From positions 3,596,001-3,660,000 of the forward strand of contig NZ_JARUND010000001.1 of the NCBI RefSeq assembly GCF_036898825.1: a stretch of DNA of 64,000 nt, given 5' to 3'. Position 1 is the stretch's first letter. Each line of letters opens with the position of its first letter. The position numbers and the translations under genes are program-made. The DNA comes from Streptomyces sp. B21-083 (lineage in GTDB: Bacteria; Actinomycetota; Actinomycetes; Streptomycetales; Streptomycetaceae). The notes beneath the pieces are model-generated. The model had not been told where the DNA came from, ran no database searches, and saw nothing but the letters and a program-made list of their open reading frames with translations. Below are positions 19,109-36,315 of the stretch, piece by piece.

Positions 19109-19813
19109 GTGACCGCCCCGAACCAGACGTCCGTGACGGACCTCATACAGGCAGCCGTACCGGACCCGCCGGACTTCCTCCACGCCACCCGCGCGTCGTA
19201 CGACGCCATGGCCGCCGACTACACAGAGCGATACGCGGACCACCTGGCGGACCTCCCGCTGGACCGCGCCCTTCTCGCCGCCTTCGCCGAGCTGGTGCGT
19301 GCCCAGGGCTCCGCGCCCGTCGCGGACATCGGCTCGGGCCCCGGGCACGTCGCCGCGAGACTGCACGCCCTCGGTGTGCCGGTGTTCGGCGTGGACCTGT
19401 CCCCGCGCATGGTGACGCTGGCCCGCCGGGCCCACCCCGGACTGCGGTTCCACGTCGGCTCGATGACGTCCCTGGACCTCCCCGACGAGACGCTGGGCGG
19501 GGTCCTGGCCCTCTACTCGATCATCCACATCCCGGACGCAGCGCTGCCCACGGTGTTCGCGGAGTTCCACCGCGTCCTGGCCCCCGGTGGCCACGTACTG
19601 CTCGCCTTCCAGACGGGTTCGGCCGACCACCACCTGCACCTCGGCGAACGCTTCGGCCACGAGATGTCACTGGACTACTGGTTCCGCACCCCGGACCGGG
19701 TGACCGAACTCCTGACCAAGGCGGGCCTGACCCTGCACGCGCAAACGATCCGGGAGCCGTACGAGGACGAGACCCGGCAGCGCGCGTATCTTTTGGCACG
19801 CAAGCCGGGGTAG
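19109..19813 (+). CDS. Class I SAM-dependent methyltransferase
   Basis: 234 residues from GTG 19109. Motif I VADIGSGPGHVAARL lies at about residues 71-85, the acidic residue after strand 2 is in FGVDLSPRMV, and motif post-I GSMTSLDLPD and HRVLAPGGHVLLAF follow. This is a Methyltransf_11/25-type small-molecule enzyme of unknown substrate. The residue pattern H-H-L-H-L-GE after the SAM fold is not diagnostic. No neighbour suggests a pathway. Confidence 0.88.
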   Translation: MTAPNQTSVTDLIQAAVPDPPDFLHATRASYDAMAADYTERYADHLADLPLDRALLAAFAELVRAQGSAPVADIGSGPGHVAARLHALGVPVFGVDLSPRMVTLARRAHPGLRFHVGSMTSLDLPDETLGGVLALYSIIHIPDAALPTVFAEFHRVLAPGGHVLLAFQTGSADHHLHLGERFGHEMSLDYWFRTPDRVTELLTKAGLTLHAQTIREPYEDETRQRAYLLARKPG

Positions 19814-20170: not shown

Positions 20171-21427
20171 TCAGCCCGTCGCCTTCGCTTCCTTTGTCGG
20201 GCGGCCCGAGTCCGTCGACACGCGCTGTACGTCCCGGGCGGAGCCCGTGACGCCCGACAGGAACCCCTGGGCCCTCGGCGACGCGTTCGCGGTCAGCCAG
20301 GCCGGGTCGATGTCGCAGACCGCGACCTTCACGTCCGTGCCCGCCAGGGCCAGCGGAAGGGTGTGGACGACCGTCGAGGGGAAGCTGAGGATCGTACGGC
20401 CGATGGGGCCGCGGCGGGCGATCAGTTCGAGGGGGAGGTCCGGGCGGACCATCTCCAGGCCCGTGCAGGCCGCCAGGTCCTGGAGTTTCTCGGGGCTCTC
20501 GCGGCGGTGGGCGAAGTAGCGCGTCACACCGTGGGCCTTGGCCAGGGCGCGGACCGCGTCACGGTAGCGGTCGGCGTCGACCACGCCGGTCTCCACGAGC
20601 GACGTACCGACCATGTCCGCGCCCTCGGCGATGTGCGGGGGGCCGAACCGGGAACGGGTCCAGGCGAAGTCGTTGTACGTGACCTCGACGCCCTCGGGGG
20701 TGTCCTCGATCGGCATCGAGGAGAAGATCTCGACCCGGCGCCTGCCGCCCGGGGTCAGCCGGCGGCGGGCCTTCGACGACACCGGGATGAACAGCAGGTC
20801 CCGCGCTCCGGGGCGCTGGGCCTTGCGGTGCCAGCGCACCAGGCGCTCACCGCGGGCGAGCTGGGAGACGAACTCCATGGTCGCCGTGCCGTCGTCGACG
20901 ACGACGAGGTCACGGGCCTTGGTGATGTTGAGAAGTACCTGTACGTAACGGGAGAACGGGTCCCCCATGACGATGCGGCGGGTGCGGCGCAGCAACGGGG
21001 CCAGGCCGCCGATCGTGCGGAACGGGGCCGAGGTGCCGGCTCGCGCGTCCTCCCAGCGGACCTCGTGGCCCTCCTCGCGGGCGAGCTCGGCCATGCGGCG
21101 CAGCTGGCCCCGGGTCATCGGGTCGACCGGGGAGAGGACGACCAGGGTCAGTCCGCCGACGGAAGCCGCCGAACTCGCCGTACTGCCCGCATGGCGCGTC
21201 GCCCGGCTCTGGCCCCTGCGCCAGCGGCGCAACGCCTGTCCGGGGACTTTGCCGCCGTTGCGAGTGGAACCGGCGCGGGCGGAAACGGCCGACGCCGGAC
21301 CGCCGGCCCCCTCCGGGCTGAGCGCGTGCGCGTGCACATGCGCCCATTCCAGCACGTTCAGAAGCTGGACCGGGCTCTCGACGAAGGCGAGAGTGTGGGG
21401 GCCGGTGGTACCGGCGCGTGGGCTCAT
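20171..21427 (-). CDS. Putative glycosyltransferase of the nonulosonate cluster (GT52/sialyltransferase-like start)
   Basis: 418 residues from ATG 21427 (MSPRAGTTGPHTLAFVESPV). The first strand and helix LAFVESPVQLLNVLEW resemble GT52-type sialyltransferases. DLVVVDDGTATMEF (about residue 168) supplies a D-D-G motif typical of bacterial sialyl/polysialyltransferase folds, and FPSTVVHTLPLAL (about 358) supplies a Ser/Thr motif. A low-complexity basic Ala/Gly/Ser insertion (about residues 40-95) separates the first two strands. It is last in the minus-strand operon, 97 bases after the NeuB gene. It likely transfers Kdn or a linked sugar; the specific reaction is inference. Confidence 0.65.
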   Translation of the reverse strand: MSPRAGTTGPHTLAFVESPVQLLNVLEWAHVHAHALSPEGAGGPASAVSARAGSTRNGGKVPGQALRRWRRGQSRATRHAGSTASSAASVGGLTLVVLSPVDPMTRGQLRRMAELAREEGHEVRWEDARAGTSAPFRTIGGLAPLLRRTRRIVMGDPFSRYVQVLLNITKARDLVVVDDGTATMEFVSQLARGERLVRWHRKAQRPGARDLLFIPVSSKARRRLTPGGRRRVEIFSSMPIEDTPEGVEVTYNDFAWTRSRFGPPHIAEGADMVGTSLVETGVVDADRYRDAVRALAKAHGVTRYFAHRRESPEKLQDLAACTGLEMVRPDLPLELIARRGPIGRTILSFPSTVVHTLPLALAGTDVKVAVCDIDPAWLTANASPRAQGFLSGVTGSARDVQRVSTDSGRPTKEAKATG

Positions 21428-21524
21428 CGACGTACGACCGTCGCTTCCGTGAGTACGGACTGGGGAATCCGCGTGGACGGAGTGGTCACCGGCTGGCGCC
21501 GGTGAAGCCGCTGAGTGGTGTGGA

Positions 21525-22460
21525 TCAGGCGGTGACGGGCTCGCCCGCGGCAGCCGCGATCTCCGCGTCGGCGATGACGCCGGAGACACGACGGAGCTTC
21601 TTCATCGGGCCGATCTCGGACTCGTAGACCTTCTTGACACCGTCGCCGAGGGACTCGGAGATGGTCCGGATGTCACGGACGAGGCGGGTCAGACCCTGCG
21701 GCTCGACGGAGGCGGCCTGGTCGGAGCCCCACATCGCACGGTCGAGGGTGATGTGACGCTCGACGAAGGTGGCGCCGAGGGCGACCGCGGCCAGCGTGGT
21801 CTGCAGGCCCGTCTCGTGGCCGGAGTAGCCGATCGGGACGTTCGGGTACTCCTTCTCCAGCGTGTTGATCACACGGAGGTTGAGCTCCTCGGCCTTCGCC
21901 GGGTAGGTCGACGTCGCGTGGCAGAGCAGGATGTTGTCGCTGCCCAGCACCTCGACCGCGTGACGGATCTGCTTCGGGGTGGACATACCCGTCGACAGGA
22001 TGACCGTACGGCCGGTCTGGCGGAGGGCGACGAGCAGCTCGTCGTCCGTCAGGGACGCGGAGGCGACCTTGTGGGCCGGGACGTCGAACTTCTCCAGGAA
22101 CGCGACGGCCTCGGTGTCCCACGGGGAGGCGAACCAGTCGATGCCGCGCTTCTTGCAGTGCTCGTCGATCTTGCGGTAGTCGTCCTCACCGAACTCCACA
22201 CGGTGGCGGTAGTCGATGTAGGTCATGCGGCCCCAGGGGGTGTCGCGCTCGATGTCCCACTGGTCGCGCGGGGTGCAGATCTCCGGGGTGCGCTTCTGGA
22301 ACTTGACCGCGTCGCAGCCGGCTTCGGCGGCCACGTCGATCAGCTTGAAGGCGTTCTCAAGGTCACCGTTGTGGTTGATGCCGATCTCGCCGCAGATGTA
22401 GACGGGCTGGCCGGGGCCGGCGGTCTTCGAGCCGAACGAGCGCAAGCGGGTGGAGGTCAT
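21525..22460 (-). CDS. Nonulosonic acid (NeuB-type) synthase lacking the SAF domain
   Basis: 311 residues. NeuB enzymes condense PEP with a hexose such as ManNAc, or a 6-phosphate form, to a nine-carbon acid. The TIM-barrel core is complete: YICGEIGINHNGD with metal/PEP residues near the front, DAVKFQKRTPE, HKVASASLTDDELL, ILSTGMST, HATSTYPAKAEELNL, IGYSGHE and VERHITLDRAMWGSDQAASVEP. The protein stops about 30 residues later, whereas classical NeuB proteins (about 350) end with an antifreeze-like SAF domain. It is 12 bases after the cytidylyltransferase stop. The context with a HAD phosphatase fits a route through a 9-phosphate such as Kdn-9-P. Confidence 0.88.
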   Translation of the reverse strand: MTSTRLRSFGSKTAGPGQPVYICGEIGINHNGDLENAFKLIDVAAEAGCDAVKFQKRTPEICTPRDQWDIERDTPWGRMTYIDYRHRVEFGEDDYRKIDEHCKKRGIDWFASPWDTEAVAFLEKFDVPAHKVASASLTDDELLVALRQTGRTVILSTGMSTPKQIRHAVEVLGSDNILLCHATSTYPAKAEELNLRVINTLEKEYPNVPIGYSGHETGLQTTLAAVALGATFVERHITLDRAMWGSDQAASVEPQGLTRLVRDIRTISESLGDGVKKVYESEIGPMKKLRRVSGVIADAEIAAAAGEPVTA

Positions 22461-22472
22461 TCTGGGGGTTCC

Positions 22473-23792
22473 TTACTTCTTGTTGAGGGGGTCGAGAGAG
22501 GGGCCGAGGATCCAGCTGGCGATCTCTCGGATCGCGCCGTCGCCGCCGGGAACGGTGGTGACCGCGCGTGCGGCGCCGCGCACAACGTCGTGGGCGCTCG
22601 CGACCGCCACGGGCCAGCCCACGAGGGCGAAGCACGGGAGGTCGTTGACGTCGTTGCCGACGTAGAGCACGCGCTCCGGCGCGATGCCCTGCTCCTCGCA
22701 CCACTGCTTCAGCGCGAGGTCTTTCCGGTCGATGCCGTGCAGCACGGGCAGCTGTAGCTTCCGTGCGCGGGCGGCGACGACCGGGTTCTGTTCCGAGGAC
22801 AGGATCAGCATTTTGAGGCTGCTCTTGCGCAACGCTGCGATTCCGAGGCCGTCACCGCGGTGCACGGAGACGAACTCCCGTCCTTCGGAGTCGATCAGCA
22901 CCCTGTCGTCTGTCTGGGTGCCGTCGAAGTCGAGTACGACCGCGTCGATGTCGTCGGCGGTCGGGAGGGCGCCGGGGCGTTCCGCGTCGAAGAGCGTCGC
23001 GAGGGCCCGGGCGCGGGCGAGGTCGTGCGGGTCGTCGATCTCCAGCACACGGGCCGGGTCGGTACGCACGGGTTCGGTGTGACCGAAGAAACGGTGCTTC
23101 GACTGGCGGAAACCCGTCGCGTCCATGGCGTAGACGGCGCCGGTCTCCAGGAGGTCCTGGGGGCGGTCCTGACGGCGGGGCCGGAAGGACTTGTCGTGAT
23201 TCACGCCATAGCCACCACCTCCGACGGTCACCGTCTCGGTGGCCACGGATCCGGTGCCGCCCTCGACGGCCGTGCGCTCGCCGGGTACCGGCTGCGGGTC
23301 GTCGGCGGCGTCGCGCCAGATGAAGCCGTGGAAGGGGGCGACGGTCAGCGCGCTGTCGGCGCCGTTGTGCACGACGGCGTTGACGACGCCGTCGACGTCC
23401 TCGCGGATGATGAACGGGCTGGTGCACTGCACGAGCAGGACCACGTCGACCTTGGCGCCGTGCAGCGTCTCGTGGGCGTCCATGGCGTGCAGGACGGCGG
23501 CCTCGGAGGTCGCGGTGTCACCGGCGATGGCGGCGGGACGCAGCACGACCTCGGCGCCGGCCTGGCGGGCCGCGGCGGCGATCGCCTGGTCGTCGGTGGA
23601 GACGACGACGTCCGTGACCAGCTTGGCGGCGAGGCACTCGCGCACCGCGCGGGCGACCAGCGGGACCCCGCCGACAGGCAGCAGGTTCTTCGCGGGCACG
23701 CCCTTGGAGCCCCCTCTCGCGGGGATCACTGCGAGCACGCGGGGCCGCGCGGTCGCTCGGCCCGCTTCCGGGTTGGACTCCGGGTTGGACAT
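22473..23792 (-). CDS. Fused CMP-nonulosonate cytidylyltransferase and HAD phosphatase
   Basis: 439 residues from ATG 23792. The N-terminal half is a NeuA-type cytidylyltransferase: VIPARGGSKGVPAKNL at 23-37, VVVSTDDQAIA, VLLVQCTSPF. A Gly-rich insertion at about 163-196 follows, then TGAVYAMD and VLEIDDPHDLARA. From about residue 282 a KdsC-like HAD phosphatase runs: VVLDFDGTQTDD with D288/D290, LILSSEQN, and VGNDVNDLP at 378-386. One chain could thus dephosphorylate a nonulosonate 9-phosphate and activate the acid to its CMP form. Similar fusions are known for CMP-sialate/Kdn enzymes. The gene is 50 bases after the upstream gene of the operon. Confidence 0.9.
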   Translation of the reverse strand: MSNPESNPEAGRATARPRVLAVIPARGGSKGVPAKNLLPVGGVPLVARAVRECLAAKLVTDVVVSTDDQAIAAAARQAGAEVVLRPAAIAGDTATSEAAVLHAMDAHETLHGAKVDVVLLVQCTSPFIIREDVDGVVNAVVHNGADSALTVAPFHGFIWRDAADDPQPVPGERTAVEGGTGSVATETVTVGGGGYGVNHDKSFRPRRQDRPQDLLETGAVYAMDATGFRQSKHRFFGHTEPVRTDPARVLEIDDPHDLARARALATLFDAERPGALPTADDIDAVVLDFDGTQTDDRVLIDSEGREFVSVHRGDGLGIAALRKSSLKMLILSSEQNPVVAARARKLQLPVLHGIDRKDLALKQWCEEQGIAPERVLYVGNDVNDLPCFALVGWPVAVASAHDVVRGAARAVTTVPGGDGAIREIASWILGPSLDPLNKK

Positions 23793-23842
23793 TGCCTGCA
23801 CTCCTTGACGCTCTTCGCGTGTCTGACGGGGGATCCGATGGG

Positions 23843-25135
23843 TCACAGCTCCCCCATCCGCCGGATCACGGGCGCGACGCGCTGCACGCCGTGCCGGTAG
23901 GCGCCGCGGGCCGCGCGACGCACGATCTGCCGCACCGCTCCCGGCTCCTTGTCGGCGGCCGGCGCTCCGGGCAGCGGAACGCCGTCGGGGCCGAGGTGGT
24001 GCCGAGCGAGAATACCCGGCAAATATCCGGGAGCCGTCATCGGTGTGTAGTACGGGGCCAGGGGCGGAAGCTTCGAGGATCCCAGAAGTCGGTCGATCCT
24101 GTCGCGTGCGGCGTCGAAGGCCGTCTCGTACGAGCCATCCGCAGCCACGCCCTGCCGGGCCACCCACGACGCGTCGGGAACGGGCTGGTGACCGGCGTCG
24201 AGCTGCTCCCAGGAGGCGAGGCAACCGGAGCCCACGAAGTGGTGGTTGCCGAGCGCCTCGCGCACGCCCAGGTCGCTCAGCACGACGGTCGGGATGCTGC
24301 GGTGCAGGGACTCCAGGGCGGCCGTGGAGCTGATGGTGACCAGCAGGTCCGTGCGGTCCAGGACCTCGCCCATGTGCCCGTAGACGAGCTTGAAGTTGGG
24401 CGGAAGGTCGGCGCGCTGGGCCAGTTTCTGGTACGGCAGTTCCTCGATGTGCGTGGTGTGCTCGCCGGGCTTGGAGCGCAGCTTGAGGAGCACCTCGCGC
24501 TCGGGGTGCAGCTTGGCGTGCTGCACGAGCCGGTCGAGGAGATACGTACGGTCCTTGCGGCTCTCCGGGACGGAGGGCTGAGCGGCGAACACCACCGTGT
24601 ACGGGTGACCATGCTCACCTGTGTAAGTCGCGCCACCCAGAAAAGGGAGTGCGATCTCGGTCACAGAGGACGAATCGGCGCCCACTCCGTCGTACACGGC
24701 CTTGAAACGGTCGGCGTCCTGACGGGAGTTCGCGAGGACCAGGTCGGCGCCGTGGCGCAGCAGGAGTCCGTCGGCGAGCTTTTCGTACACGACCCCGACA
24801 TAGCCGGTGACGACGACAGGGCGCAGGGCCGTGTCGTCCCACACCTGCGCCAGGCCGTGCAGCATCGCCTGGACGCCGCCGCCGACCAGGGCGAGCACGA
24901 GGATGTCGTACGGCTCCTCCTGGTCCATGGCCCGCAGGAACTCCAGGGCGGTCACCTCGCGCAGCGAGTCCGCGGTGACGCCGACCTCCTGGAGCTGGCG
25001 GGCGGTGGGGGTGGCCCTGCCTCTGAGGAGGTAGCCGTCGAGATGAATGTCCGAATTATCAGGAGAAATACGACTGGCGGTGAGCGCACCCCATTTCCAC
25101 CGAGTGTCGGAATCGGCGAGGACGGCGACCCTCAT
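23843..25135 (-). CDS. Putative glycosyltransferase (DUF6716-type), first gene of nonulosonate operon
   Basis: 430 residues starting MRVAVLADSDTRWKWG; a longer frame upstream lacks a good start. GT-B-like halves are suggested by an N-terminal Rossmann strand, VVVTGYVGVVYEKLADGLLLRHGADLVLANS, then VVFAAQPSVPESRKDRTYLL, LLKLRSKPGEH, and LVTISSTAALESLHRSIPTVVLSDLG. The last resembles the S/T motif of capsule-type transferases. I recall the family as DUF6716 putative glycosyltransferase. The C-terminus is basic (RRAARGAYRHG), consistent with membrane association. It leads the operon with neuB and neuA-HAD genes. Confidence 0.65.
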   Translation of the reverse strand: MRVAVLADSDTRWKWGALTASRISPDNSDIHLDGYLLRGRATPTARQLQEVGVTADSLREVTALEFLRAMDQEEPYDILVLALVGGGVQAMLHGLAQVWDDTALRPVVVTGYVGVVYEKLADGLLLRHGADLVLANSRQDADRFKAVYDGVGADSSSVTEIALPFLGGATYTGEHGHPYTVVFAAQPSVPESRKDRTYLLDRLVQHAKLHPEREVLLKLRSKPGEHTTHIEELPYQKLAQRADLPPNFKLVYGHMGEVLDRTDLLVTISSTAALESLHRSIPTVVLSDLGVREALGNHHFVGSGCLASWEQLDAGHQPVPDASWVARQGVAADGSYETAFDAARDRIDRLLGSSKLPPLAPYYTPMTAPGYLPGILARHHLGPDGVPLPGAPAADKEPGAVRQIVRRAARGAYRHGVQRVAPVIRRMGEL

Positions 25136-25357
25136 GGGGCTCGTGGTACTGGCTGGCACGCCCAAGACCTTAAGCCGACATGGGGTGCTTCCACCCAATC
25201 CCAAGGCAACAAAGGGTTAACAAAGGGCCGCGTCGACTTGAATCAAGACGCCATACGTGCAGAAACCCCCTTGATTCACCGGTCGGACACATGTAGTTCA
25301 CCCGACATCAAACCCCGGGTAAAGTGAGACCACCGGAGAGGCTCTAACCTCGGACTC

Positions 25358-26344
25358 GTGGTCAAGCTCTCCGTCATCGTGCCGTTCTACAACGTGCAGC
25401 AATACGCGCCCGACACTCTGAAGAGCCTGCGTGCCAACGCGCGTGAGGACTTCGAGTTCATCCTCGTCGACGACTGTTCGAGCGACGAGACTCCGGACAT
25501 CCTCGCGCGCGCAGAGCGCGAGCTGCCGGGCGCCGTGCTGGTCAGCCACGAGAAGAACGGAGGCCTGGCCACCGCCCGCAACACCGGTATCGACAAAGCG
25601 CGTGGCGAATACCTCACGTTCCTCGACGGCGACGACTGGCTCGCTCCCGACTATTTCCCCCAACTTCTCGCCGCTATTGAGGAGTTGGGCTGCGATTTCG
25701 TTCGTACGGACCATGTCCAGTGCACCGGTCGGGCGCGCGCGATCCATCGGGTCCCGCACGGCAGGCGCGGGGTCGTGATGTCGCCGCGGGACGCGATCCT
25801 GCCCACCGACCGCACCACCTCCGTCGACTACGCCTACGCCTGGGCGGGCATCTACCACCGCCGGCTCGTCGACCGCGGCATCCTGCACTTCACCGACGGG
25901 CTGCGTACGGCGGAGGACCGGCCGTGGATCTGGAAGCTGCACCGGGAGGCGGAGTCGTTCGCCGCGGTGGGGCTGCTCGGGGTCTTCTACCGGCGTGGGG
26001 TCGCCTCCTCGCTCACCCAAATCGGTGATGTTCGCCAACTCGACTTCATCCGGGCCTTCGACCAGGTCATCGAGGAGACGGCCCGGGACCCCGAGGCGGA
26101 TAGGCTGCTGCCGAAAGCAGTGCGCACCTACTGCGCGATCATGGCTCATCATCTCGGAGCGATCGAGAGGTTCGAACCGGCCGTGGCCCGAAAACTGCGC
26201 TCGCTGAGCGCCGCCGCGCTGAAGCGGATGCCGCAGGACGTACTCGCGGAGGCCATCGACTCGATGGACGTCCAGCGGGCCAACCGGCTGCGGAAGGTAC
26301 GGCGCAGGCCCGTCTCCGCGTCCGCCGGGACGGTGTCCGTCTGA
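25358..26344 (+). CDS. GT2 family glycosyltransferase, pair A
   Basis: 328 residues from GTG 25358. The GT-A domain shows LSVIVPFYNVQQY, FILVDDCSSDETPDI, NGGLATARNTGID and the D-x-D element FLDGDDW (about residues 89-95), then RTAEDRPWIWKLH, which carries the acceptor-side ED. TAACCT lies only about 10 bases before the GTG with no ribosome-binding site, so the mRNA may be leaderless. It is followed by a polysialyltransferase-like gene with a TGATG overlap. A paralogous pair lies inverted at 29301-31639. It probably adds neutral sugar units of a cell-wall polymer. Confidence 0.88.
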   Translation: MVKLSVIVPFYNVQQYAPDTLKSLRANAREDFEFILVDDCSSDETPDILARAERELPGAVLVSHEKNGGLATARNTGIDKARGEYLTFLDGDDWLAPDYFPQLLAAIEELGCDFVRTDHVQCTGRARAIHRVPHGRRGVVMSPRDAILPTDRTTSVDYAYAWAGIYHRRLVDRGILHFTDGLRTAEDRPWIWKLHREAESFAAVGLLGVFYRRGVASSLTQIGDVRQLDFIRAFDQVIEETARDPEADRLLPKAVRTYCAIMAHHLGAIERFEPAVARKLRSLSAAALKRMPQDVLAEAIDSMDVQRANRLRKVRRRPVSASAGTVSV

Positions 26345-27753
26345 TGTCCGGCAGCGACAAGACCCGCCCCGCGCGGACCCGTACCACTCAGGCCCGCACC
26401 ACTCAGATCTTCTGCGCGTCGACGCTCTACGGCGCCGCGACGCTGGCCGCCGCCCTCGACGCCGGCCTCTTCGGGCCGGCCGACCGACGGCTGCTGCTGA
26501 TCACCAACAACGCCGCCAACCCCGAGATCACCCCCGGGGTCGACGCGATGTCCGGCTTCGACCGGGTGAGCGGGCGGTTCGACGAGGTCCTGTCCTGGAA
26601 CGAGACGATCGCCCCGTTCCACCCCAGCGGCTGGGGCCCGCGCGCCGACGACGTCCCGCTGTGGGAGCGGCATCTGCGGCTGCTGTGGAACCTCGGTGAC
26701 GACAACATCGAGCTGGCCGTCGAGTCCGTGCAGGTCAACCCGGCCCTCGCGCTGTGCCAGTTGTTCACCGGCGCGCCCGTGGACGTCTACGCGGACGGCC
26801 TCATAAGTTACGGCCCCACGCGCGACAAGATCGACGCGCTGGTCGGGACCCGTATCGGGCGCCTGCTCCACCTCGACCTCGTCCCGGGCCTCACCCCGCT
26901 GCTGCTCACCGAGTTCGGTGTGCCCGCCGAACTCGTGCCGTCCGAGGCGTTCCTGAAGGTGCTCGGCGAACTCGCCGAGGCCGGGGACGAGACGGAGACC
27001 TGGGCGACTCCCCCGAAGGGACAGCCCGCGCTGCTCCTCGGCCAGTACCTCTCCGCGCTCGGCATCCTCACCCCGCACGAGGAGGAGGAACTGCATCTGC
27101 GCATGGTGCGCGGCGCGGTGAAGGCCGGGCACCTCTCGCTCGTCTTCAAGCCGCACCCGACCGCGCCCACGGCCTGGTCGCGGTCCCTGGAGACGGAGGC
27201 GAAGAAGCTCGGCGCCGAACTCACCGTCCTGGACCGGCCCGTGCTCGCCGAGGTCCTCTTCCAGCGGCTGCGCCCCGCGCTGGTCGTCGGCTGCTTCTCG
27301 ACCGGCCTGTTCACGGCGGCCGGTCTGTACGGCATCCCGGTCGCCCGGGTCGGCACGGACACCGTGCTGGAGAAGATCGCGCCGTACCAGAACAGCAACC
27401 GCGTGCCCCTGACCATCGTGGACATGCTGCTGCCGGACCTCGCGGACGCCAAGGCCGTCAAGAAGTGGTCGATGCCGTCGGACAAGCAGGTCGGCAAGAA
27501 CCTGGCCGGGCTGATCAAGGCGATCGGCTTCTGCATGCAGCCCCGGATCTATCCCCGGCTGCGCCCGGAGGCGGAGAGCTACCTCTCCAAGCACCTCACC
27601 GAGCAGACCTGGCGCTACTTCAAGCGCCGCCGGCTGACCTCGCTGGCACTGCCCGGAGCCCTCCCGTCCCAGCTGTCGTTCATCCCGCGCAACGCGACCG
27701 TGCGCCGGATCGCGCGCCGGGCCCGGGCGTTGAGCAAAACGGTGAAGCGGTGA
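26344..27753 (+). CDS. Polysialyltransferase-like glycosyltransferase, pair A
   Basis: 469 residues. It has the three hallmarks of bacterial sialyl/polysialyltransferase folds: an acidic-acidic-G-type motif in VYADGL (about 148-153), K-P-H-P at 269-272, and the serine motif GCFSTGLFTAA (S319, T320). The N-terminal QIFCASTLYGAATLAAAL is typical of the POLYST (alpha-2,8-polysialyltransferase) family. No signal peptide is seen, so the enzyme would act at the inner membrane face on CMP-nonulosonate made by the neighbouring operon. The basic C-terminus (RRLTSLALPG, RRIARRARAL) fits membrane docking. It is about 50% similar by eye to the copy at 29301. Confidence 0.85.
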   Translation: MSGSDKTRPARTRTTQARTTQIFCASTLYGAATLAAALDAGLFGPADRRLLLITNNAANPEITPGVDAMSGFDRVSGRFDEVLSWNETIAPFHPSGWGPRADDVPLWERHLRLLWNLGDDNIELAVESVQVNPALALCQLFTGAPVDVYADGLISYGPTRDKIDALVGTRIGRLLHLDLVPGLTPLLLTEFGVPAELVPSEAFLKVLGELAEAGDETETWATPPKGQPALLLGQYLSALGILTPHEEEELHLRMVRGAVKAGHLSLVFKPHPTAPTAWSRSLETEAKKLGAELTVLDRPVLAEVLFQRLRPALVVGCFSTGLFTAAGLYGIPVARVGTDTVLEKIAPYQNSNRVPLTIVDMLLPDLADAKAVKKWSMPSDKQVGKNLAGLIKAIGFCMQPRIYPRLRPEAESYLSKHLTEQTWRYFKRRRLTSLALPGALPSQLSFIPRNATVRRIARRARALSKTVKR

Positions 27754-28017
27754 AGCGCTGACACGGTGAAGCGGTGACAAGGGGCACTGCGAAGATTTAA
27801 TCTGCCAAACGCGTCGTCTCCCGGTTCGTATACGGACGGGTGGCGGCGCGTTGGCGTCCGCGTGCATCCATCCGTGTCCGTCAGACGTCAATGAGCTGAC
27901 CGGTTGTTCATCCGTGAGAGTTGTGTGCTACCTCTTTGGGTTGCCCCTGACTCTCGTGGCTACCGTCGACGAGTCAGCTTCTCCTCTTTCCGAGTTCCCG
28001 CTGCGAAAGGCCACTCG

Positions 28018-29217
28018 ATGACCGCGGCCGACCAGACCATGGCCCCCCCGCTCCCGGCCCCGCCGCCGGGTCCGCGGTCCGGGAGTGCCGAACCGGCCGT
28101 CCCGCCCGCCGCCGAGGGTGCCAAGCCCCGTCGCCCGGTCAGCCGGCTGAAGGCGCTGGACGGGCTGCGGCTGGTGGCCGCGCTGATGGTCTGCATGTAC
28201 CACTTCGCCGGCAAGAACGGCCAGGTCGCCGAGTCCTGGCACCAGTCGCCCGGTGTGATGTTCCCGACCCTGTCCCGGTTCGCCACCTACGGCAGCCTCG
28301 GAGTGCAGTTCTTCTTCGTCATCAGTGGCTTCGTCATCTGCATGAGCAGCTGGGGCAAGACGCTGGGCGACTTCTTCCGCTCGCGTATCGCCCGTCTCTA
28401 CCCGGCGTACTGGGTGGCGATCGTCATGGTCACCGCCGCCTCGTTCCTGATGCCGGTGGTCGTGCACCATGTGCGCGGCGACGAGTTCCTGGTCAACCTC
28501 ACGATGATGCAGCAGCCGCTGGGCGTGCCGCGCGTCCTGGGCGTGTGCTGGACGCTGTGGGTGGAGCTCAAGTTCTACGTGCTGTTCGCGCTGTTCGTGG
28601 TCTGGAAGGGCGTCACCTACCGCCGTGTGGTGACCTTCTGCATCCTGTGGACGCTGGCCGGCGCCTTCGCCCGGGTCGCGGACAACCCGCTGATCTCCGA
28701 ACTCACCTTCCGCGACCACGCCCCCTTCTTCATCGGCGGCCTGGCCCTCTACCTGATCCACCGTTACGGCAGCGACCTGCTCCTGTGGGGAATCGTCGGC
28801 ATGTCGTACCTGCTGGGCCAGCGCTACGCGGTGACGGCACTGTGGCACCCGGGCGCGCAGGGCGACTTCGTCCGCAGCCCGTACGTCATCCAGCTGATCG
28901 TGCTGCTCGCCTTCGTGTCCGTCGCGGTGGTGGCACTGGGCTGGACGAGCTGGGCGAACTGGAACTGGCTGACACTCGCGGGCGCGCTGACGTACCCCTT
29001 CTACCTGATCCACGAGCACCTGGGCTGGTTCTTCATCCGCGTCCTGCACCGCGGTTGGGGCCTCGACCCCTACCTGACGATCCTCGCGTCGGTGGCGAGC
29101 CTGCTGACGCTGGCCTATCTGATGCACAGGTTCATCGAGAAGCCGTTCGGCTCCCGACTGAAGCGGACGATGACGCTGCAGTCGAAGCAGCTGGGCGAGA
29201 AGCTGAAGCTTCGGTAG
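28018..29217 (+). CDS. OafA/YrhL-like acyltransferase (Acyltransferase 3)
   Basis: 399 residues from ATG 28018 with GAAAGG upstream. After a Pro-rich cytoplasmic lead of about 40 residues, RLKALDGLRLVAALMVCMYHF carries the family's R and H residues in TM1, GVQFFFVISGFVICMS follows, RSRIARLYPAYW gives the R-x-x-R motif, and about 10 helices follow to FIEKPFGSRL. Such proteins O-acetylate surface glycans. Its place between the two GT2/polysialyltransferase pairs suggests it acetylates the nonulosonate polymer or its partner sugar. It ends at a strong bidirectional hairpin. Confidence 0.9.
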   Translation: MTAADQTMAPPLPAPPPGPRSGSAEPAVPPAAEGAKPRRPVSRLKALDGLRLVAALMVCMYHFAGKNGQVAESWHQSPGVMFPTLSRFATYGSLGVQFFFVISGFVICMSSWGKTLGDFFRSRIARLYPAYWVAIVMVTAASFLMPVVVHHVRGDEFLVNLTMMQQPLGVPRVLGVCWTLWVELKFYVLFALFVVWKGVTYRRVVTFCILWTLAGAFARVADNPLISELTFRDHAPFFIGGLALYLIHRYGSDLLLWGIVGMSYLLGQRYAVTALWHPGAQGDFVRSPYVIQLIVLLAFVSVAVVALGWTSWANWNWLTLAGALTYPFYLIHEHLGWFFIRVLHRGWGLDPYLTILASVASLLTLAYLMHRFIEKPFGSRLKRTMTLQSKQLGEKLKLR

Positions 29218-29246
29218 CGGTCCCGCCGATGTGAACGCGGTGACGT

Positions 29247-29285
29247 GAGAGGGCCCGGAGTCGGAATCCGACTCCGGGCCCTCTC
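29247..29285. terminator. Bidirectional terminator between convergent cluster halves
   Basis: 19-bp inverted repeat around a single central A (29247-29265 with 29267-29285), GC-rich at its base. It sits between the acyltransferase stop (29217) and the stop of the convergent polysialyltransferase-like gene (29301). Confidence 0.9.
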
Positions 29286-29300
29286 ATCTGCCTGTACCCG

Positions 29301-30650
29301 TCAGGACTGTGCGGCCCTGATCCTCTTCACGACCTTGCGGACCGTCGGGTTGCGCCGCAGCGTCTCCGCGCGGACCGTGCTGCCGCCGGGGAGGCGGAGG
29401 CTGGTCAGGCGACGGCGCTTGAAGTAGTGCGCGTTCTCCGACAGATGGACCGACAGCCAGGCGGCGACCTCGTCGCGCAGCTGCGGGTGCTTACGGGACT
29501 GCATGCAGTACCCGACCGCCTTCACCAGCGGCGACAGCCGCTCGACGAGCCCGGGGTCGTCGGACGGGGTGCCGATGGCGGACGCGAGATCGCGTTCGGC
29601 GTCGGGCAGGGCCGCGTCGATGATGGTGAGCGGGATGCGGTTGCTGTTCTCGTACGGCGTGATGGCGTCGAGGAGCGAGTCCGTGCCGACCCGGGCGACC
29701 GGGATGCCGTAGAAGGTCGCGGCGGTCATCAGCGCGGTGGAGAAGCAGCCGATGACGAGCTGCGGCTTCAGATACGCGAACACCGTCTCGGCGAGCACCG
29801 GTTCGTTCAGCACGCTCAGATGCACGCCGAGTTCCGTGGCGGCGCTCTGCAGGGACGTGGAGTACGCGGCCGGGGCGCTCGGATGCGGCTTGAACAGGAC
29901 GGCCGTGTGACCGGCCTTCGCGGCGGCCCGGAGCATCCGGACGTGCAGCTCCTCCTCTTCCTCCTGGGTGATGAGGTTGATGGCGGACAGGTACTGGCCG
30001 AGGAGCACGGCCGTCGGACGGTTCTCGGCCGGGATACGGGCGGCCAGGATGTCGACGCCCTGCTCCCCGATCTCGTTGAGCACGCCGACGATCGGCTCGT
30101 TGGGGATCGGCACCGGCTCCACGCCGTACTCGGCGAGCAGCAGGGGCCGAAGGCCCGGTATGAGGTCGAGGTGCAGCACCCGCGCGATGCGGCTGCTCAT
30201 GCCGTGCGGGACGCGGTTGCGAGTGGGGCCGTAGCTCATCAGGCCGTCCGCGTACACATGGATCGGGCTGTCGGCGAAGATCTCGGCGACCGCGCGGGAG
30301 GGGTTCGCCTGGATCGACTCGCAGGCGATCTCCACGGGCTCGTCACCGAGGTCCCAGGCCAGGCGTACGGCCTTCTCCCACATGATCGCGTCCTGCGCGC
30401 GCGGGGACCAGCCGGCCGGGTGGTGCGGGGAGATGAACTCGTTCCACGAGCGCACCTCGTCGAACTCGGGCCGCAGCTTCTCGAAGCCGGACATCCGGTC
30501 GAGCGGGGTGCCCACCTCCGGGATGGCGGCCGTGTTGCTGACGACCAGGATGCGGCGGTGGTCCTCGCGCGGGCCGAAGAGCCCTGCTCGGATGGCGGCC
30601 GTGACGGTCGCCGCGGCGTACTGCGTCGCCGAGAAGAAGATCTGGATCAT
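29301..30650 (-). CDS. Polysialyltransferase-like glycosyltransferase, pair B
   Basis: 449 residues. It is a paralogue of the protein at 26344 with the same landmarks: VYADGL (132-137), GQYLSAINLIT, K-P-H-P at 254-257, and GCFSTALMTAA with S304/T305. It lacks the 20-residue polar N-terminal extension of pair A and begins MIQIFFSATQYAAATVTAAI. The ATG overlaps the stop of the upstream GT2 gene (ATGA). Two such enzymes in one locus suggest that they make different linkages or act at different steps (initiation versus extension) in the polymer. Confidence 0.85.
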   Translation of the reverse strand: MIQIFFSATQYAAATVTAAIRAGLFGPREDHRRILVVSNTAAIPEVGTPLDRMSGFEKLRPEFDEVRSWNEFISPHHPAGWSPRAQDAIMWEKAVRLAWDLGDEPVEIACESIQANPSRAVAEIFADSPIHVYADGLMSYGPTRNRVPHGMSSRIARVLHLDLIPGLRPLLLAEYGVEPVPIPNEPIVGVLNEIGEQGVDILAARIPAENRPTAVLLGQYLSAINLITQEEEEELHVRMLRAAAKAGHTAVLFKPHPSAPAAYSTSLQSAATELGVHLSVLNEPVLAETVFAYLKPQLVIGCFSTALMTAATFYGIPVARVGTDSLLDAITPYENSNRIPLTIIDAALPDAERDLASAIGTPSDDPGLVERLSPLVKAVGYCMQSRKHPQLRDEVAAWLSVHLSENAHYFKRRRLTSLRLPGGSTVRAETLRRNPTVRKVVKRIRAAQS

Positions 30651-31639
30651 GCCGCGATTCCCTTCATACCGCCGCGCACGCGCCGCAGCAGGTGTACACG
30701 CTGCTCGCCCATCCCGATGAGGGCGGCCTGCAGCTCGTCCTCGGTCATCTTGTTCAGGGCGTCGGCGCTCATCTGCCGCAGCTTGGCGGCGGTGGGCCGG
30801 TCGAACCGGCTGCGCTGGAGGAGCTGGTGCGCGATGACGACGCAGTAGTTGCGCAGCGCCTTCTTGCGCAGCAGCCCGACCTCGGGGTCGTTCGCCAGTT
30901 CGGCGAGTACGAGGTCGAAGGACCGGAAGAAGTCCAGCTGACGGACGTCTCCGATCTGGGTGAGAGAGGTGGTGACTCCCCGGCGGTAGAAGACCCCGCG
31001 CAGGCTGGCGACGGCGTAGGACTCGGCCCTGCGGTGCAGGTCCCAGATCCAGGGGCGGTCCTCGGCGGTCTTCAGACCGTCGTGGAAGCGCAGCATGCCC
31101 TTGTCGAGGAGGCGGCGGTGGTAGACGCCGGCCCAGGCGTAGGGGTAGTCGACCATCGTGGTGTCGTCGACCGGGAGGATCGAGGTGCGCGGGTCCAGCG
31201 GGACGTTCCGGCGGCCCTCGGGGGCCCGGTGGACGGCCCGCTCGATGCCGTTGACCTGGACGTGGTCGGTGCGGACGAAGTCGACGTCGTGGCGCTGGAC
31301 GGCGTCCACGAGGTCCTTCAGATAGCCCGGGGCCAGCCAGTCGTCACCGTCGAGGAAGGTGAGGTAGGTGCCTTCGGCCGCGTCGATGCCGGTGTTGCGG
31401 GCGGTGGCCAGACCGCCGTTGTGCTCGTGCTGGATCACCCTGCCGTGCTTCAGCCGCTTCGTCAGCTCCAGCAACGCCTCGTAGGTCTTGTCCTTCGTCG
31501 AGCGGTCCTCGACGAAGATGAACTCGAAGTCGTCCTGGTCGTTGTTGACGAGACTCGTCACTGTGTCCGAGACATAGGTCTCGATGTTGTAACAAGGGAC
31601 GATGACGGACAGTATCGGGGGACGATTGGTCACGCGCAC
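30647..31639 (-). CDS. GT2 family glycosyltransferase, pair B
   Basis: 330 residues from GTG 31639; GTG 31633 is also possible. It is a paralogue of the GT2 at 25358: LSVIVPCYNIETY, FIFVEDRSTKDKT, NGGLATARNTGID, FLDGDDW and RTDHVQVNG, then KTAEDRPWIWDLH. It heads a two-gene unit with the following polysialyltransferase-like gene, mirror image to pair A. Both C-terminal halves share SLTQIGDVRQLDF, so the whole protein, not just the GT-A core, is conserved between pairs. Confidence 0.88.
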   Translation of the reverse strand: MRVTNRPPILSVIVPCYNIETYVSDTVTSLVNNDQDDFEFIFVEDRSTKDKTYEALLELTKRLKHGRVIQHEHNGGLATARNTGIDAAEGTYLTFLDGDDWLAPGYLKDLVDAVQRHDVDFVRTDHVQVNGIERAVHRAPEGRRNVPLDPRTSILPVDDTTMVDYPYAWAGVYHRRLLDKGMLRFHDGLKTAEDRPWIWDLHRRAESYAVASLRGVFYRRGVTTSLTQIGDVRQLDFFRSFDLVLAELANDPEVGLLRKKALRNYCVVIAHQLLQRSRFDRPTAAKLRQMSADALNKMTEDELQAALIGMGEQRVHLLRRVRGGMKGIAA

Positions 31640-32560: not shown

Positions 32561-32925
32561 GGCATCCTCCTTTTCAGGGGTCACTCTTCACGAGAGTAAC
32601 CGGGGGCGTACCTCTTCCGCCCTCGATCACCCCTTAGAGGGAATCGCCCAGGTCGGAAGCCATCCGACGGCACGGGAACCGCGCACACCTCACCCTCGGT
32701 CCTCCCGAGCCCTCAGCGCGTCGGGGCTGTACACCGGTTCGACGGGTAGTCCCGGCTGCGACTCGCGGGTCATGGTGGACGGCGGCGCGTAACTTGCCAG
32801 TCGCCGTACACGACAACGCAGCGGAGTCCGTCCCCCGAGCAAGTGCGGCAGGCATCGAATCGGCGGGACGGACGGATGGGGGTCAGATGCTGAGCTTCGG
32901 GGGGTCCGGCTTGCGTACTACGGAC
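32561..32925. other. 365-base stretch upstream of the L,D-transpeptidase gene
   Basis: No reliable coding frame was found. I looked for a c-di-AMP (ydaO-type) leader because such elements precede cell-wall hydrolase genes in Streptomyces, but could not find its conserved blocks. A CCCTTAGAGGG palindromic patch near 32630 is the only local structure noticed. Confidence 0.4.
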
Positions 32926-33768
32926 ATGCGAAAGGTGATTTTCGTCGTTCTCGCGGCTCTCGCCGTGGGCGGCTGCACGGTGCGGACCACCGATCCGGGC
33001 GGTAGCCCTCGGTCGCCCGTGCACATGCAGGTCTCGCACCCGCCCGCCGACGACAAACCCGGCGCCACGGCCACACCGAGGTCGGCACCGACCCCGGCTC
33101 CGAGGCCGAAGAAGGCGCCCGCTCCCGCACCGCCCGCCCCCGTCCTCTGGTCGCGCGGGGACAGCGGACGGGACGTGCGTGAGCTGCAGGCGCGGCTGCA
33201 CCAGGTCGCCTGGCTCTACGACGGGCCGACCGGGTCGTACGACGACCTGACGGAGAACGCCGTCAGGGGCTTCCAGGGCAAGCGCGGGCTGCCCCGCACC
33301 GGGAGGACCGACACCGTCACCTGGCAGCGGCTGCTGCGGATGACACACGAACCCGGACAGTGGGAGCTGTATCTGACCGGCGGGCAGCCGGCCGCCTATC
33401 CCGACCCGCGCTGCCTCAGGGGCCGGGTGCTGTGCATCAGCAAGTCGAGCCGGACGCTGCGCTGGATGATCGACGGCCGGACCGTGTCGACGGTGGCCGT
33501 GCGGTTCGGCAGCCAGTACACGCCGACCAGGGAAGGCGTCTTCAGCGTCTACTGGAAGTCACGGCACCACGTGTCGACGCTCTACGACTCCCCGATGCCC
33601 TACGCGATGTTCTTCAGCGGCGGCCAGGCCGTCCACTACTCCGCCGACTTCGCGGCCCGCGGCTACGGCGGCGCCTCGCACGGCTGCGTGAACGTCCGGG
33701 ACGAGACGGCCATCGCCGCGATCTTCGCCGAGGTGAGCACCGGCGACAAGGTCGTCATCTATTGGTGA
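32926..33768 (+). CDS. L,D-transpeptidase lipoprotein with peptidoglycan-binding domain
   Basis: 280 residues from ATG 32926; ATG 32887 would add 13 residues before the signal. The lipoprotein signal MRKVIFVVLAALAVGGC puts Cys17 in the lipobox. A Pro/Ala-rich tether runs to about 72, a PG_binding_1 domain to about 137 (LWSRGDSGRDVRELQARL...), and a YkuD domain from about 165 to the end, with the catalytic motif S251-H-G-C254-V-N and upstream His at 238 (VHYSAD). YkuD enzymes form 3-3 cross-links or attach proteins to peptidoglycan. It is monocistronic and acts outside the membrane. Confidence 0.92.
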   Translation: MRKVIFVVLAALAVGGCTVRTTDPGGSPRSPVHMQVSHPPADDKPGATATPRSAPTPAPRPKKAPAPAPPAPVLWSRGDSGRDVRELQARLHQVAWLYDGPTGSYDDLTENAVRGFQGKRGLPRTGRTDTVTWQRLLRMTHEPGQWELYLTGGQPAAYPDPRCLRGRVLCISKSSRTLRWMIDGRTVSTVAVRFGSQYTPTREGVFSVYWKSRHHVSTLYDSPMPYAMFFSGGQAVHYSADFAARGYGGASHGCVNVRDETAIAAIFAEVSTGDKVVIYW

Positions 33769-33970: not shown

Positions 33971-35119
33971 TCAGGTGGCCGTCGGCAGCGGCAGGGCGCC
34001 GTACGAGGGGGCGGCGGCCGGGGCCGGGTCGTTCTGGGGTCTGTGCGATCCGCGCGCGGCGAAGGACGTCGGTGTGGGAGTCGGCCTCGTCGCGGCACGT
34101 CCGCCGTGGCTGCCGCCGTTGCCATTGCCATTGCCGTGGCCGTTTCCACCGCCGCCGCCGTTGCTGTTGCCGCCGGCGCCGTTCCCCTTGCCACCGTTGT
34201 CACCGGCGCCGTTCTGGCCGCCCTCGGCGCCGGTGTCTCCCTTGCCCGACCCGGTGCCTGTACCCGTTCCCGTGTCGGCGTTCGAGTGGACGCCCGGATC
34301 GTCCTTCAGGGCGGTCTCGCAGTACTGCGGCACCTTCTTGACACCCTTGGCCGCCTTCTCCAGGGCCCGGCTGCGCTCCGCCTCCAGCTTCTTGCCGCTG
34401 CGCATGTCGCGGCAGGACGAGGCGAGTCCGCCCCGCCGGCCGCCGGGCAGGCCCATGTCGGAGCGGGACCCGTGGCCCCCGTCCGCCGGGCCCTTCCTGC
34501 TCTCCTCGGGTTCCGGGGAACCGTTGCCGAAGGAACCCCCGGGCGCGCCGCCGGGTCTGAGGGACGGGACGCTTCTGCCCCGGGTGCCGTCCGGCGACGG
34601 CGAGGCCAGCATGGGGTCGCGCGACTCGGCGGCCGAGACGGTGGCGGTGGGGCGGCCGGGCTCGTCGCCGCGGAAAGGGTTCGGCAGGACGCCGACACCG
34701 GCGGCCATCGCGACCGAACCGGCCATACCGGCGGCCAGCGCGGCACCGAGCCCCAGCCGCAGGGGGCGGCCCCAGCGGGCCGCGCGGACGCCCCTCCGGT
34801 GGGAGGCACCGGAACGCCCGGCCCCTCCTACGCGTACGAGGCCCATGTCGGATCCCATGTCCGACGCGGGTGCGACGGCGGTGAGGTCCGGGGCCGGGCG
34901 CGCCTTGCGGAAGGCGGCCAGCGCCGCGGCCTCGCCGGGGAGTTCGGCGCCGCTCCGCGGGGGGTCCACGGAGAGCGCGCCCAGGGTCTTGGCGAGCCGC
35001 TCCGCCCGGTCGCGGGCCTCGGGGCCCGCGGACGTCAGTGAAGCCTCCAGCGGCTCCCCGCTCAGCAGGCGTTCCGCCGCAGCGCGGTCCAGCCACCTGT
35101 ACCGGTCGTCGTCGGCCAT
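33971..35119 (-). CDS. Membrane protein co-expressed with ECF sigma factor (putative anti-sigma factor)
   Basis: 382 residues from ATG 35119, overlapping the sigma stop (TGATG). A cytoplasmic N-terminal region of about 115 residues (DRYRWLDRAAAERLLSG... LAAFRKARPAP) is followed by one membrane segment at about 118-142 (LGLGAALAAGMAGSVAMAAG) and a long extracytoplasmic tail. The tail has two Cys (SSCRDMRSG, VPQYCETAL) and a Gly/Asn-rich repeat of GNG and GGN units. Topology and operon position fit an anti-sigma factor, but no zinc-binding HxxxCxxC motif is present, so the role is inferred. Confidence 0.7.
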   Translation of the reverse strand: MADDDRYRWLDRAAAERLLSGEPLEASLTSAGPEARDRAERLAKTLGALSVDPPRSGAELPGEAAALAAFRKARPAPDLTAVAPASDMGSDMGLVRVGGAGRSGASHRRGVRAARWGRPLRLGLGAALAAGMAGSVAMAAGVGVLPNPFRGDEPGRPTATVSAAESRDPMLASPSPDGTRGRSVPSLRPGGAPGGSFGNGSPEPEESRKGPADGGHGSRSDMGLPGGRRGGLASSCRDMRSGKKLEAERSRALEKAAKGVKKVPQYCETALKDDPGVHSNADTGTGTGTGSGKGDTGAEGGQNGAGDNGGKGNGAGGNSNGGGGGNGHGNGNGNGGSHGGRAATRPTPTPTSFAARGSHRPQNDPAPAAAPSYGALPLPTAT

Positions 35120-35796
35120 CACATGTCCTTCTGCGTCCGCGAACGCGTATGCGTCACACCGGCCGACGTCACCGCACGTCCGTGCGGTTCCCGTGGGGGT
35201 GGCAGCGCGTCGAGCGCGGCGGTCGCGTCCGGGTCCTCCCCGAGCAACTCCGCGAGCCGCCGCAGACCGCGGTGCGCCGCCGTGCGTACGGCTCCGGGGC
35301 GTTTGCCGAGGGTCTCGGCGGCGGTCTTGGCGTCGAGGCCGACGACCACCCGCAGGACGACGGCCTCGGCCTGGTCCTGCGGCAACCGGGCGATGAGGGA
35401 GAGGGTGCTGTCGGTGGCCAGCGACTCCATGGCCTCGCCCGCCGTGTCGGAGTCGGCGGCCCGGCCGGACAGCTCGGTCTCGTCGCCGCCTATGGCGGGG
35501 CGGCGTCCGCGCATCCGTACGTGGTCCAGGGCACGGTTACGGGCTATCCGCGCGGCCCAGCCCCGGAACCGGTCCGCGTCCCCGCTGAACCGGTCCAGGT
35601 CACGGGCGATCTGCAGCCAGGCCTCGGACGTCACGTCCTCGGCGTCGGGGTCGCCGACCAGCGTCCGCACGTATCCGAGCAGCCGTGGGTGCACCGCGCG
35701 GTACACAGTCCGGAACGCGGTCTCGTCCCCAGCCTGTGCCGCAAGCACCGCGGTGGTCAGCTCCGCGTCGTCCCCCTGCACCACACCTCTTTGCAC
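35119..35796 (-). CDS. ECF sigma factor A
   Basis: 225 residues from GTG 35796; in-frame GTGs at 35784 and 35781 are alternatives. Region 2 is in FRTVYRAVHPRLLGYVRTLVGDPDAEDVTSEAWLQIARDL and FRGWAARIARNRALDHVRMR; region 4 is in LPQDQAEAVVLRVVVGLDAKTAAETLGKRPGAVRTAAHRGLRRL. It is a paralogue of the sigma factor at 36312 with an almost identical region 4.2. It is translationally coupled to a putative anti-sigma membrane protein. Target promoters unknown. Confidence 0.92.
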   Translation of the reverse strand: MQRGVVQGDDAELTTAVLAAQAGDETAFRTVYRAVHPRLLGYVRTLVGDPDAEDVTSEAWLQIARDLDRFSGDADRFRGWAARIARNRALDHVRMRGRRPAIGGDETELSGRAADSDTAGEAMESLATDSTLSLIARLPQDQAEAVVLRVVVGLDAKTAAETLGKRPGAVRTAAHRGLRRLAELLGEDPDATAALDALPPPREPHGRAVTSAGVTHTRSRTQKDM

Positions 35797-36111: not shown

Positions 36112-36315
36112 TCACCGCCAGTCGTCCCGGCGCCGGGTGCGGGTCACCTTGTGCGCGCCGGAGTCCCGGGCCGCGAGAAACGCGGTGACCGCCCTCCGTT
36201 CCGCGTCACCGGTGATGTCCTCGTCCCGGGAGCGTTCGCGCAGGACGGCGGCGAGCAGTCCCGCCAGGCGCGGGCGGCCCCGCCTCCGGCTGCCGGTCAT
36301 GTCGTCGCCGTTCAT
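36112..36315 (-). CDS. Small basic protein coupled to ECF sigma factor B
   Basis: 67 residues, rich in Arg (MNGDDMTGSRRRGRPRLAG... DDWR). The ATG overlaps the sigma B stop as ATGA, so translation is probably coupled. There is no membrane segment, cysteine or recognised domain. The position after a sigma gene suggests a regulator or partner of sigma B, but this is only context. Confidence 0.6.
   Translation of the reverse strand: MNGDDMTGSRRRGRPRLAGLLAAVLRERSRDEDITGDAERRAVTAFLAARDSGAHKVTRTRRRDDWR

Follow-up and report, generated by a model that had tools for sequence, protein, structure and literature searches.

In Streptomyces coelicolor, the genes SCO4873 to SCO4882 are described, in those parts of the literature covered here, as the teichulosonic-acid cluster (PMC13011467) and as a target of PhoP (PMC2267785, PMC2824715, PMC13011467), and the same gene set is listed for Planobispora rosea (PMC8269224). 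In the sections covered, the polymer is reported to have up to seven repeats of galactose and 2-keto-3-deoxy-D-glycero-D-galacto-nononic acid (Kdn), often with N-acetylglucosamine or methyl (PMC7831098, PMC11481543). Kdn polymers of differing structure occur in Streptomyces walls, and the same parts of the literature do not state which enzyme makes which linkage.

The locus considered here lies at 20171-31639 of a 64,000 nt stretch of Streptomyces sp. B21-083 (the window, to which all coordinates refer), part of a 10.5 Mb Streptomyces genome, and by protein identity it is near to S. turgidiscabies and Streptomyces sp. SID12488. Genes for NeuB, NeuA, a family 2 glycosyltransferase (GT2), a PF07388 polysialyltransferase-like protein (PST), and DUF6716 are present in conserved order, which would make this a locus of an already known kind, the Kdn teichulosonic-acid cluster like SCO4873-SCO4882. 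The link to that cluster had been drawn in an earlier note on this DNA and is supported by the portion of PMC13011467 covered. All of the genes named in that note were found again in the same places, with functions that hold at the level of the family.

The window is read here, with reasonable confidence, as a phosphate-starvation-type Kdn teichulosonic acid locus in which a second, old GT2 and PST module faces the core module and probably makes a second linkage or repeat from the same pool of cytidine monophosphate-Kdn (CMP-Kdn). The earlier account, in which an ancestral pair was duplicated in inverse orientation, gives way to one in which GT2 and PST would form an obligate cassette of several old lineages, one of them standing face to face with the core here.

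Origin of the two facing pairs

The core module, pair A, consists of GT2-A (25358..26344, + strand; PF00535, E 1e-34) and PST-A (26344..27753, + strand; PF07388, E 9e-33). The second module, pair B, is on the opposite strand, with GT2-B (30647..31639, - strand; PF00535, E 4e-32) followed by PST-B (29301..30650, - strand; PF07388, E 1.7e-28). The reading frames overlap by 1 base in pair A and by 4 bases in pair B, which would suggest coupled translation. Between the facing pairs there is a bidirectional terminator-like inverted repeat (29247..29285, no strand), and the terminator proposed there is real in that it has two perfect 19-base arms (29247-29265 and 29267-29285).

PST-A and PST-B are 52% identical (234 of 446 aligned columns) and GT2-A and GT2-B 58% (183 of 313), and in this sense the description of the pairs as paralogous gene by gene was correct. 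Trees were made of 121 GT2 and 121 PST proteins, the PST tree by a quick search with Shimodaira-Hasegawa-like approximate likelihood ratio (SH-aLRT) support. In the PST tree, 64 of the 68 core-labelled rows, PST-A being in the core clade, form a clade together with one tandem copy (support 100), and the ten mirrored pairs, with PST-B, form a separate clade (support 100). The mirrored clade is recovered in the GT2 tree (support 99), where GT2-A groups with the core pairs. In both trees, the nearest outsiders to the mirrored clade are lone pairs, one in locus L049 (genome G129), 1.6 Mb from the core locus, and one in L084 (G121).

Trees of both proteins across Streptomyces were what the earlier note had proposed as a check on co-duplication, and in them pair B and its own pair A do not form one clade. 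Approximately unbiased (AU) tests were run on 72 of the 121 rows, with ten long-branched or broken loci dropped and 18 non-mirrored core rows drawn at random. A clade of the mirrored pairs with their own core pairs is rejected for PST (log likelihood 168 lower, p 2.3e-4) and for GT2 (115 lower, p 7.3e-10), as is a clade of the mirrored pairs with all core pairs of the set (p 7.3e-5 for PST, 1.1e-3 for GT2). On this sequence evidence, pairs A and B are old versions of one two-enzyme module that have been inherited separately.

The ratios of nonsynonymous to synonymous change (dN/dS) in three comparisons are 0.13, 0.15, and 0.33 for PST-B and 0.10, 0.13, and 0.20 for GT2-B, a range of 0.10-0.33 that indicates purifying selection on pair B like that on the rest of the locus. 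Pair B distances track those of DUF6716 and NeuA (r 0.96 over 17 mirrored loci, to which the window's own locus does not belong, its NeuB row having been dropped by the overlap filter). On a tree of 126 loci, 20 are convergent, 14 tandem, 82 without a second pair, and 10 too short, and the convergent state changes at least 9 times; the pair in L080, which is counted among the 20, is of the other lineage.

Gene-by-gene paralogy and the mirror arrangement might be taken to indicate that pair B arose in place, in the ancestor of these strains, as an inverted copy of pair A and then diverged fast. The AU tests reject this placement under the models used, the closest relatives of pair B are the lone pairs of L049 and L084, and the dN/dS of pair B is like that of other locus genes, all of which leaves such a copy a very remote prospect. 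It might also be proposed that the mirrored pair came from outside on several occasions, instead of being gained once and then often lost. The patchy occurrence of the convergent state on the locus tree would agree with this, and whole-locus transfer would give the same pattern; the mirrored pairs are, however, one clade, and their distances track the locus genes, which makes repeated gain unlikely. One installation with many losses, or whole-locus transfer, fits best as the origin of the mirrored state.

GT2 and PST as a two-gene module

A total of 99 stretches of up to 20 kb (one 200-base filler being excluded) and the window were annotated against the window proteins. This gave 123 PST rows, reduced to 121 when two fragments of one broken gene were dropped; second PST matches with unlisted places were left out (for example in G022, G041, G092, G105, G115, G132, and G138). 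All 121 PST genes kept have a same-strand GT2 gene within 2.2 kb upstream, with a short GT2 row in two outgroup loci. The patristic distances of GT2 and PST are correlated, in part from shared species history, with r 0.88 over the 121 rows, 0.91 over 35 second pairs, and 0.80 over 68 core pairs, and none of 999 permutations was as high. That the GT2 and PST of each pair descend together had not been foreseen in the earlier note, and it points to GT2 and PST as an obligate two-gene polymerisation module.

PST-A and PST-B score 114.6 and 100.6 bits against PF07388, for which the cut-off is 23.3, and share the HP motif (H in 119 and P in 121 of 121) and the ST motif with the alpha-2,8-polysialyltransferases of that family. 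They differ from these in having ADG for the D/E-D/E-G motif, in the GT2 partner seen here in 121/121, and in a donor that is probably CMP-Kdn.

In Streptomyces sp. uw30 (G063; L090 12809-13690, and L193), PST-A is in two pieces in different frames and the PST-B match is partial, which may be decay or an assembly error.

Distribution and arrangement in Streptomyces

Among 150 sampled Streptomyces genomes, PF07388 is matched in 141 and NeuB in 139. Both are present in 138 and neither in 8, with NeuB alone in one (G062) and PST alone in three (G050, G073, G102), which are assemblies of 1,140 or more contigs each; PST is therefore missing from genomes that lack the nonulosonate pathway. There are at least two PST matches in 45 of the 150 genomes and one in 96, a match not always being a whole gene. 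Outside this sample, PST is present in 32 of the 61 genomes, and 11 of the 17 genera, of a family sample and in 44 of the 296 genomes of a class sample.

The order of the core genes is conserved across the Streptomyces loci fetched. The position of the second pair is variable: of 80 named loci, 13 are mirrored and 12 tandem, several of the contigs being too short to show the arrangement. A position facing the core also occurs among second pairs of the other group (L078-L083 and L087), others of which are in tandem (L041, L042, L086, and L088) or have no core gene in their stretch (for example L043, L045, and L048).

A YfhO-family membrane protein is encoded directly upstream of remote second GT2-PST pairs in L043 (5709-8321) and L048 (11522-14137). 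In L054 (10913-12631) and L108 (10808-12622), an Acyl_transf_3 protein with an extra N-terminal part is convergent to remote pairs, recalling the acyltransferase of the window. In S. phyllanthi (L152), a second-type GT2-PST pair (57%, 53%) occupies the core site next to DUF6716, as though one cassette had replaced another. In L051 and L065 (G136, G038) the whole nonulosonate locus is strongly diverged (DUF6716 49-58%, NeuB 83-85%), and a second NeuB is present elsewhere.

Probable phosphate-type regulation

Between DUF6716 and GT2-A lies a divergent promoter of 150 bases. Its two sets of three 11-base repeats are conserved across 65 aligned loci, and the PHO box of S. coelicolor, as given in the part of PMC4415409 covered, served as their reference. 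One PHO-box-like set is directed toward the left operon (25189..25221, - strand) and the other toward GT2-A and PST-A (25274..25306, + strand). The left-facing form, GTTnAC-11-GTTG, is present in 60 of 65 core promoters (shuffled mean 0.15), and the form facing GT2-A, TTCAC-22-TTCAC, in 36 of 65 (shuffled mean 0). Nothing in the locus was picked up when the window was scanned strictly for two near-perfect GTTCA halves 11 nt apart.

A promoter was called PHO-box-like when its three-unit score had p <= 0.05 against its own shuffles. Such triplets are found in 60/65 core promoters, 6/10 mirrored pairs, and 21/26 other second pairs (22/26 in another run, because the shuffles are random), compared with 6/111 upstream regions of seven other locus genes and 8/150 random windows. 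They are present in 12 of the 13 other second pairs that have no core gene in their stretch and are not on a cut contig beside the core, the exception being L084. The repeats would support PhoP-type control of the core, and they predict phosphate control of unlinked glycosyltransferase pairs.

Synthesis of the donor sugar

The NeuB-family nonulosonate synthase (21525..22460, - strand) matches PF03102 only. It aligns to residues 9-299 of the 349-residue 1xuu and does not carry the C-terminal SAF domain that is present in solved sialic acid synthases, and the same is true of the 7/7 relatives examined, from several families, in which just 0-13 residues lie beyond the aligned part. It is also below the NCBIfam cut-offs for N-acetylneuraminate synthase (258.7 against 399.65) and PseI (212.2 against 340.25), and is thus not a canonical N-acetylneuraminate synthase.

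The next gene (22473..23792, - strand; CTP_transf_3 and HAD), with its start most likely at 23792, encodes a fusion of a NeuA-like cytidylyltransferase with a HAD half of the KdsC and Kdn-9-phosphate phosphatase kind, which is near-identical to 3mmz and matches the KDN-9-phosphatase model NF058599 at 73.8 bits, below the cut-off of 180. The best NeuC match in the genome, at 59.9 bits, does not reach the curated cut-off of 235.9.

The earlier note had proposed that the sugar was probably Kdn. Because of the NeuA-HAD fusion, the lack of a NeuC over the cut-off, and a NeuB that has no SAF domain and is below the N-acetylneuraminate cut-off, Kdn is favoured over other nonulosonic acids as the donor, though not proven.

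Other probable transferases of the locus

The gene at 20171..21427 (- strand), whose start is most likely 21427 rather than 21589, encodes a 418 aa 'ESPV' protein without a Pfam family, a putative CMP-nonulosonate transferase with a GT-B fold match of the polysialyltransferase type. Its D/E-D/E-G motif is DDG in 142/142 rows and invariant in 48 aligned sequences. At the expected distance it has Y..H[RK][RK] in 135/142 rows and Y..HP in 0/142. This protein, which is unannotated and widespread in Streptomyces, can be named as a likely sialyltransferase-type enzyme.

DUF6716 (23843..25204, - strand; PF20471, E 1.3e-105) is a putative GT-B-like glycosyltransferase, the GT-B neighbours of its weak structure model being users of UDP-sugars. 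Its true start is probably about 45 bases further in, a 99%-identical database version (P0121) being 438 aa. A text search of a limited literature collection for 'DUF6716' gave no match.

The acyltransferase (27904..29217, + strand; PF01757, E 3e-23) is an Acyl_transf_3 membrane protein. Loci that lack the mirrored pair have this subtype as well, the mirrored label changing 6 times among 94 rows, and the acyltransferase was therefore rejected as a part specific to a mirrored cassette.

Proposed model and alternatives

The model builds on gene content, tree topology, module linkage, co-loss with NeuB, repeats, and a fold match; the substrates, linkages, and role that it gives to each transferase are predictions. 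NeuB would join mannose-6-phosphate and phosphoenolpyruvate to give Kdn-9-phosphate, from which the HAD half would make Kdn and the NeuA half CMP-Kdn. The 20171 protein and the PST proteins, which bear hallmarks of CMP-sialyltransferases, would transfer the Kdn, and the hexose that alternates with it (in S. coelicolor, galactose) would be added by the GT2 partner. For DUF6716, which is weakly GT-B and UDP-sugar-like, a role in chain initiation or in the addition of a side sugar is possible, and the acyltransferase may O-acylate the polymer, which would be attached by LytR-CpsA-Psr (LCP) ligases encoded elsewhere; there are 10 LCP matches in the genome as candidates. The product would be a phosphate-free, sialic-acid-like wall polymer.

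There are several old lineages of the module in Streptomyces, with the core module next to DUF6716 in almost all species and a second, optional module that may be convergent to the core, in tandem, or a megabase away. In the lineage of the window, the second module would have come to face the core and then descended with the locus, making a second repeat or decoration, probably from the same CMP-Kdn pool.

Several observations weigh against this reading. In the PST proteins the first position of the D/E-D/E-G motif is A in 102, S in 13, and E in 2 of 121 (followed by D in 116 and G in 120), so that ADG is found instead, and in the 20171 protein HR, invariant in the 48 aligned sequences, replaces HP; with these replacements, both depart in detail from the published sialyltransferase motifs. 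Compared with the Mannheimia haemolytica polysialyltransferase (5wc6, 5wcn), a member of GT38, the 20171 protein has 12% identity, a root mean square deviation of 5.8-6.0, and HR rather than HP, the last being the reason why it is not filed as GT38. This polysialyltransferase was not among the 50 Foldseek matches listed for the 20171 protein, and it was seen only in a second-look VIA-align. When solved relatives were sought by sequence for PST, the 20171 protein, and DUF6716, there were either no matches or chance-level ones only, with no PST relative found in the PDB in this way, and a profile comparison among the three, with shallow profiles, found no sequence-level link. The structure model of DUF6716 is poor (predicted local distance difference test score, pLDDT, 61) and supports GT-B, nothing more. 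A shared origin of the mirrored pairs with the other second pairs has weak support in the PST tree (86) and in the set of 72 rows (48), and the GT2 tree does not recover it. The window pair B and its two nearest relatives have no PHO-box-like repeat upstream above shuffles (p 0.45, 0.80, 0.84), which would mean that pair B may not share the regulation of the core; read by eye, a TTGACA-like element is present there instead.

This separate promoter might indicate that pair B makes a glycan of its own outside the teichulosonic acid, sharing only the CMP-Kdn donor or using another, as might the far-off second pairs of some other species that lie beside YfhO or acyltransferase genes. Such a division is somewhat doubtful in view of the PHO-box-like repeats at most of the other second pairs and at 6/10 of the mirrored ones, and of the tight descent of pair B with the locus. 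A product of the N-acetylneuraminic acid, legionaminic, or pseudaminic type, and not Kdn, would be compatible with the matches of NeuB and NeuA to several nonulosonate-pathway models, all of them below cut-off. It is improbable given that NeuC is missing over its cut-off, that the HAD fused to NeuA resembles Kdn-9-phosphate phosphatase and KdsC, and that, according to the part of PMC7831098 covered, Kdn occurs in the polymer of S. coelicolor.

With a Kdn locus carrying a second module as the preferred reading, a wider hypothesis can be put forward tentatively. GT2 and PST might be an interchangeable, largely PhoP-controlled polymerase cassette, the lineages of which, beside the core or distant from it, share one CMP-Kdn pool and write different hexose-Kdn repeats. 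The cassette content could then set the species-specific structure of teichulosonic acid, and perhaps phage, toxin, or lectin binding. Strains that differ by the two-gene cassette have been identified, and the three predicted CMP-Kdn transferases (the 20171 protein, PST-A, and PST-B), with each PST tied to one GT2, make a testable assignment.

Neighbouring genes

A SAM-dependent methyltransferase gene (19109-19813) adjoins the locus and is also found in 9/99 fetched stretches, the flanks of which are often cut; methyl groups are reported on the teichulosonic acid of S. coelicolor. On the right flank are an L,D-transpeptidase with a peptidoglycan-binding domain and two extracytoplasmic function (ECF) sigma factors (32794-33768, 35119-35796, 36312-36977). 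In many relatives, the locus is likewise accompanied by the transpeptidase and by the nearer of the two sigma factors.

Comparison with known systems

The likeness to S. coelicolor can be followed gene by gene through the printed annotation, which gives SCO4877 as hypothetical, SCO4878 as a glycosyltransferase, SCO4879 as hypothetical, SCO4880 as a transferase, and SCO4881 as a polysaccharide synthesis protein; the window genes would be matched to the SCO genes on this basis, and SCO4873 would be the second PST. For the cluster, PMC13011467 cites Ostash et al. 2014. In S. tendae and S. parvulus, near relatives of S. coelicolor, the second pair is in tandem, not convergent as in the window. Its PST (outside the tree in both species) is 50-52% identical to PST-B and therefore probably belongs to the other second-pair lineage. 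The teichuronic-acid (utr) loci of Streptomyces, bound by umbrella toxins according to the part of PMC13274773 covered, are likewise variable wall glycan loci with species-specific glycosyltransferase content, while the sugars and genes described in that text differ from those of the window locus.

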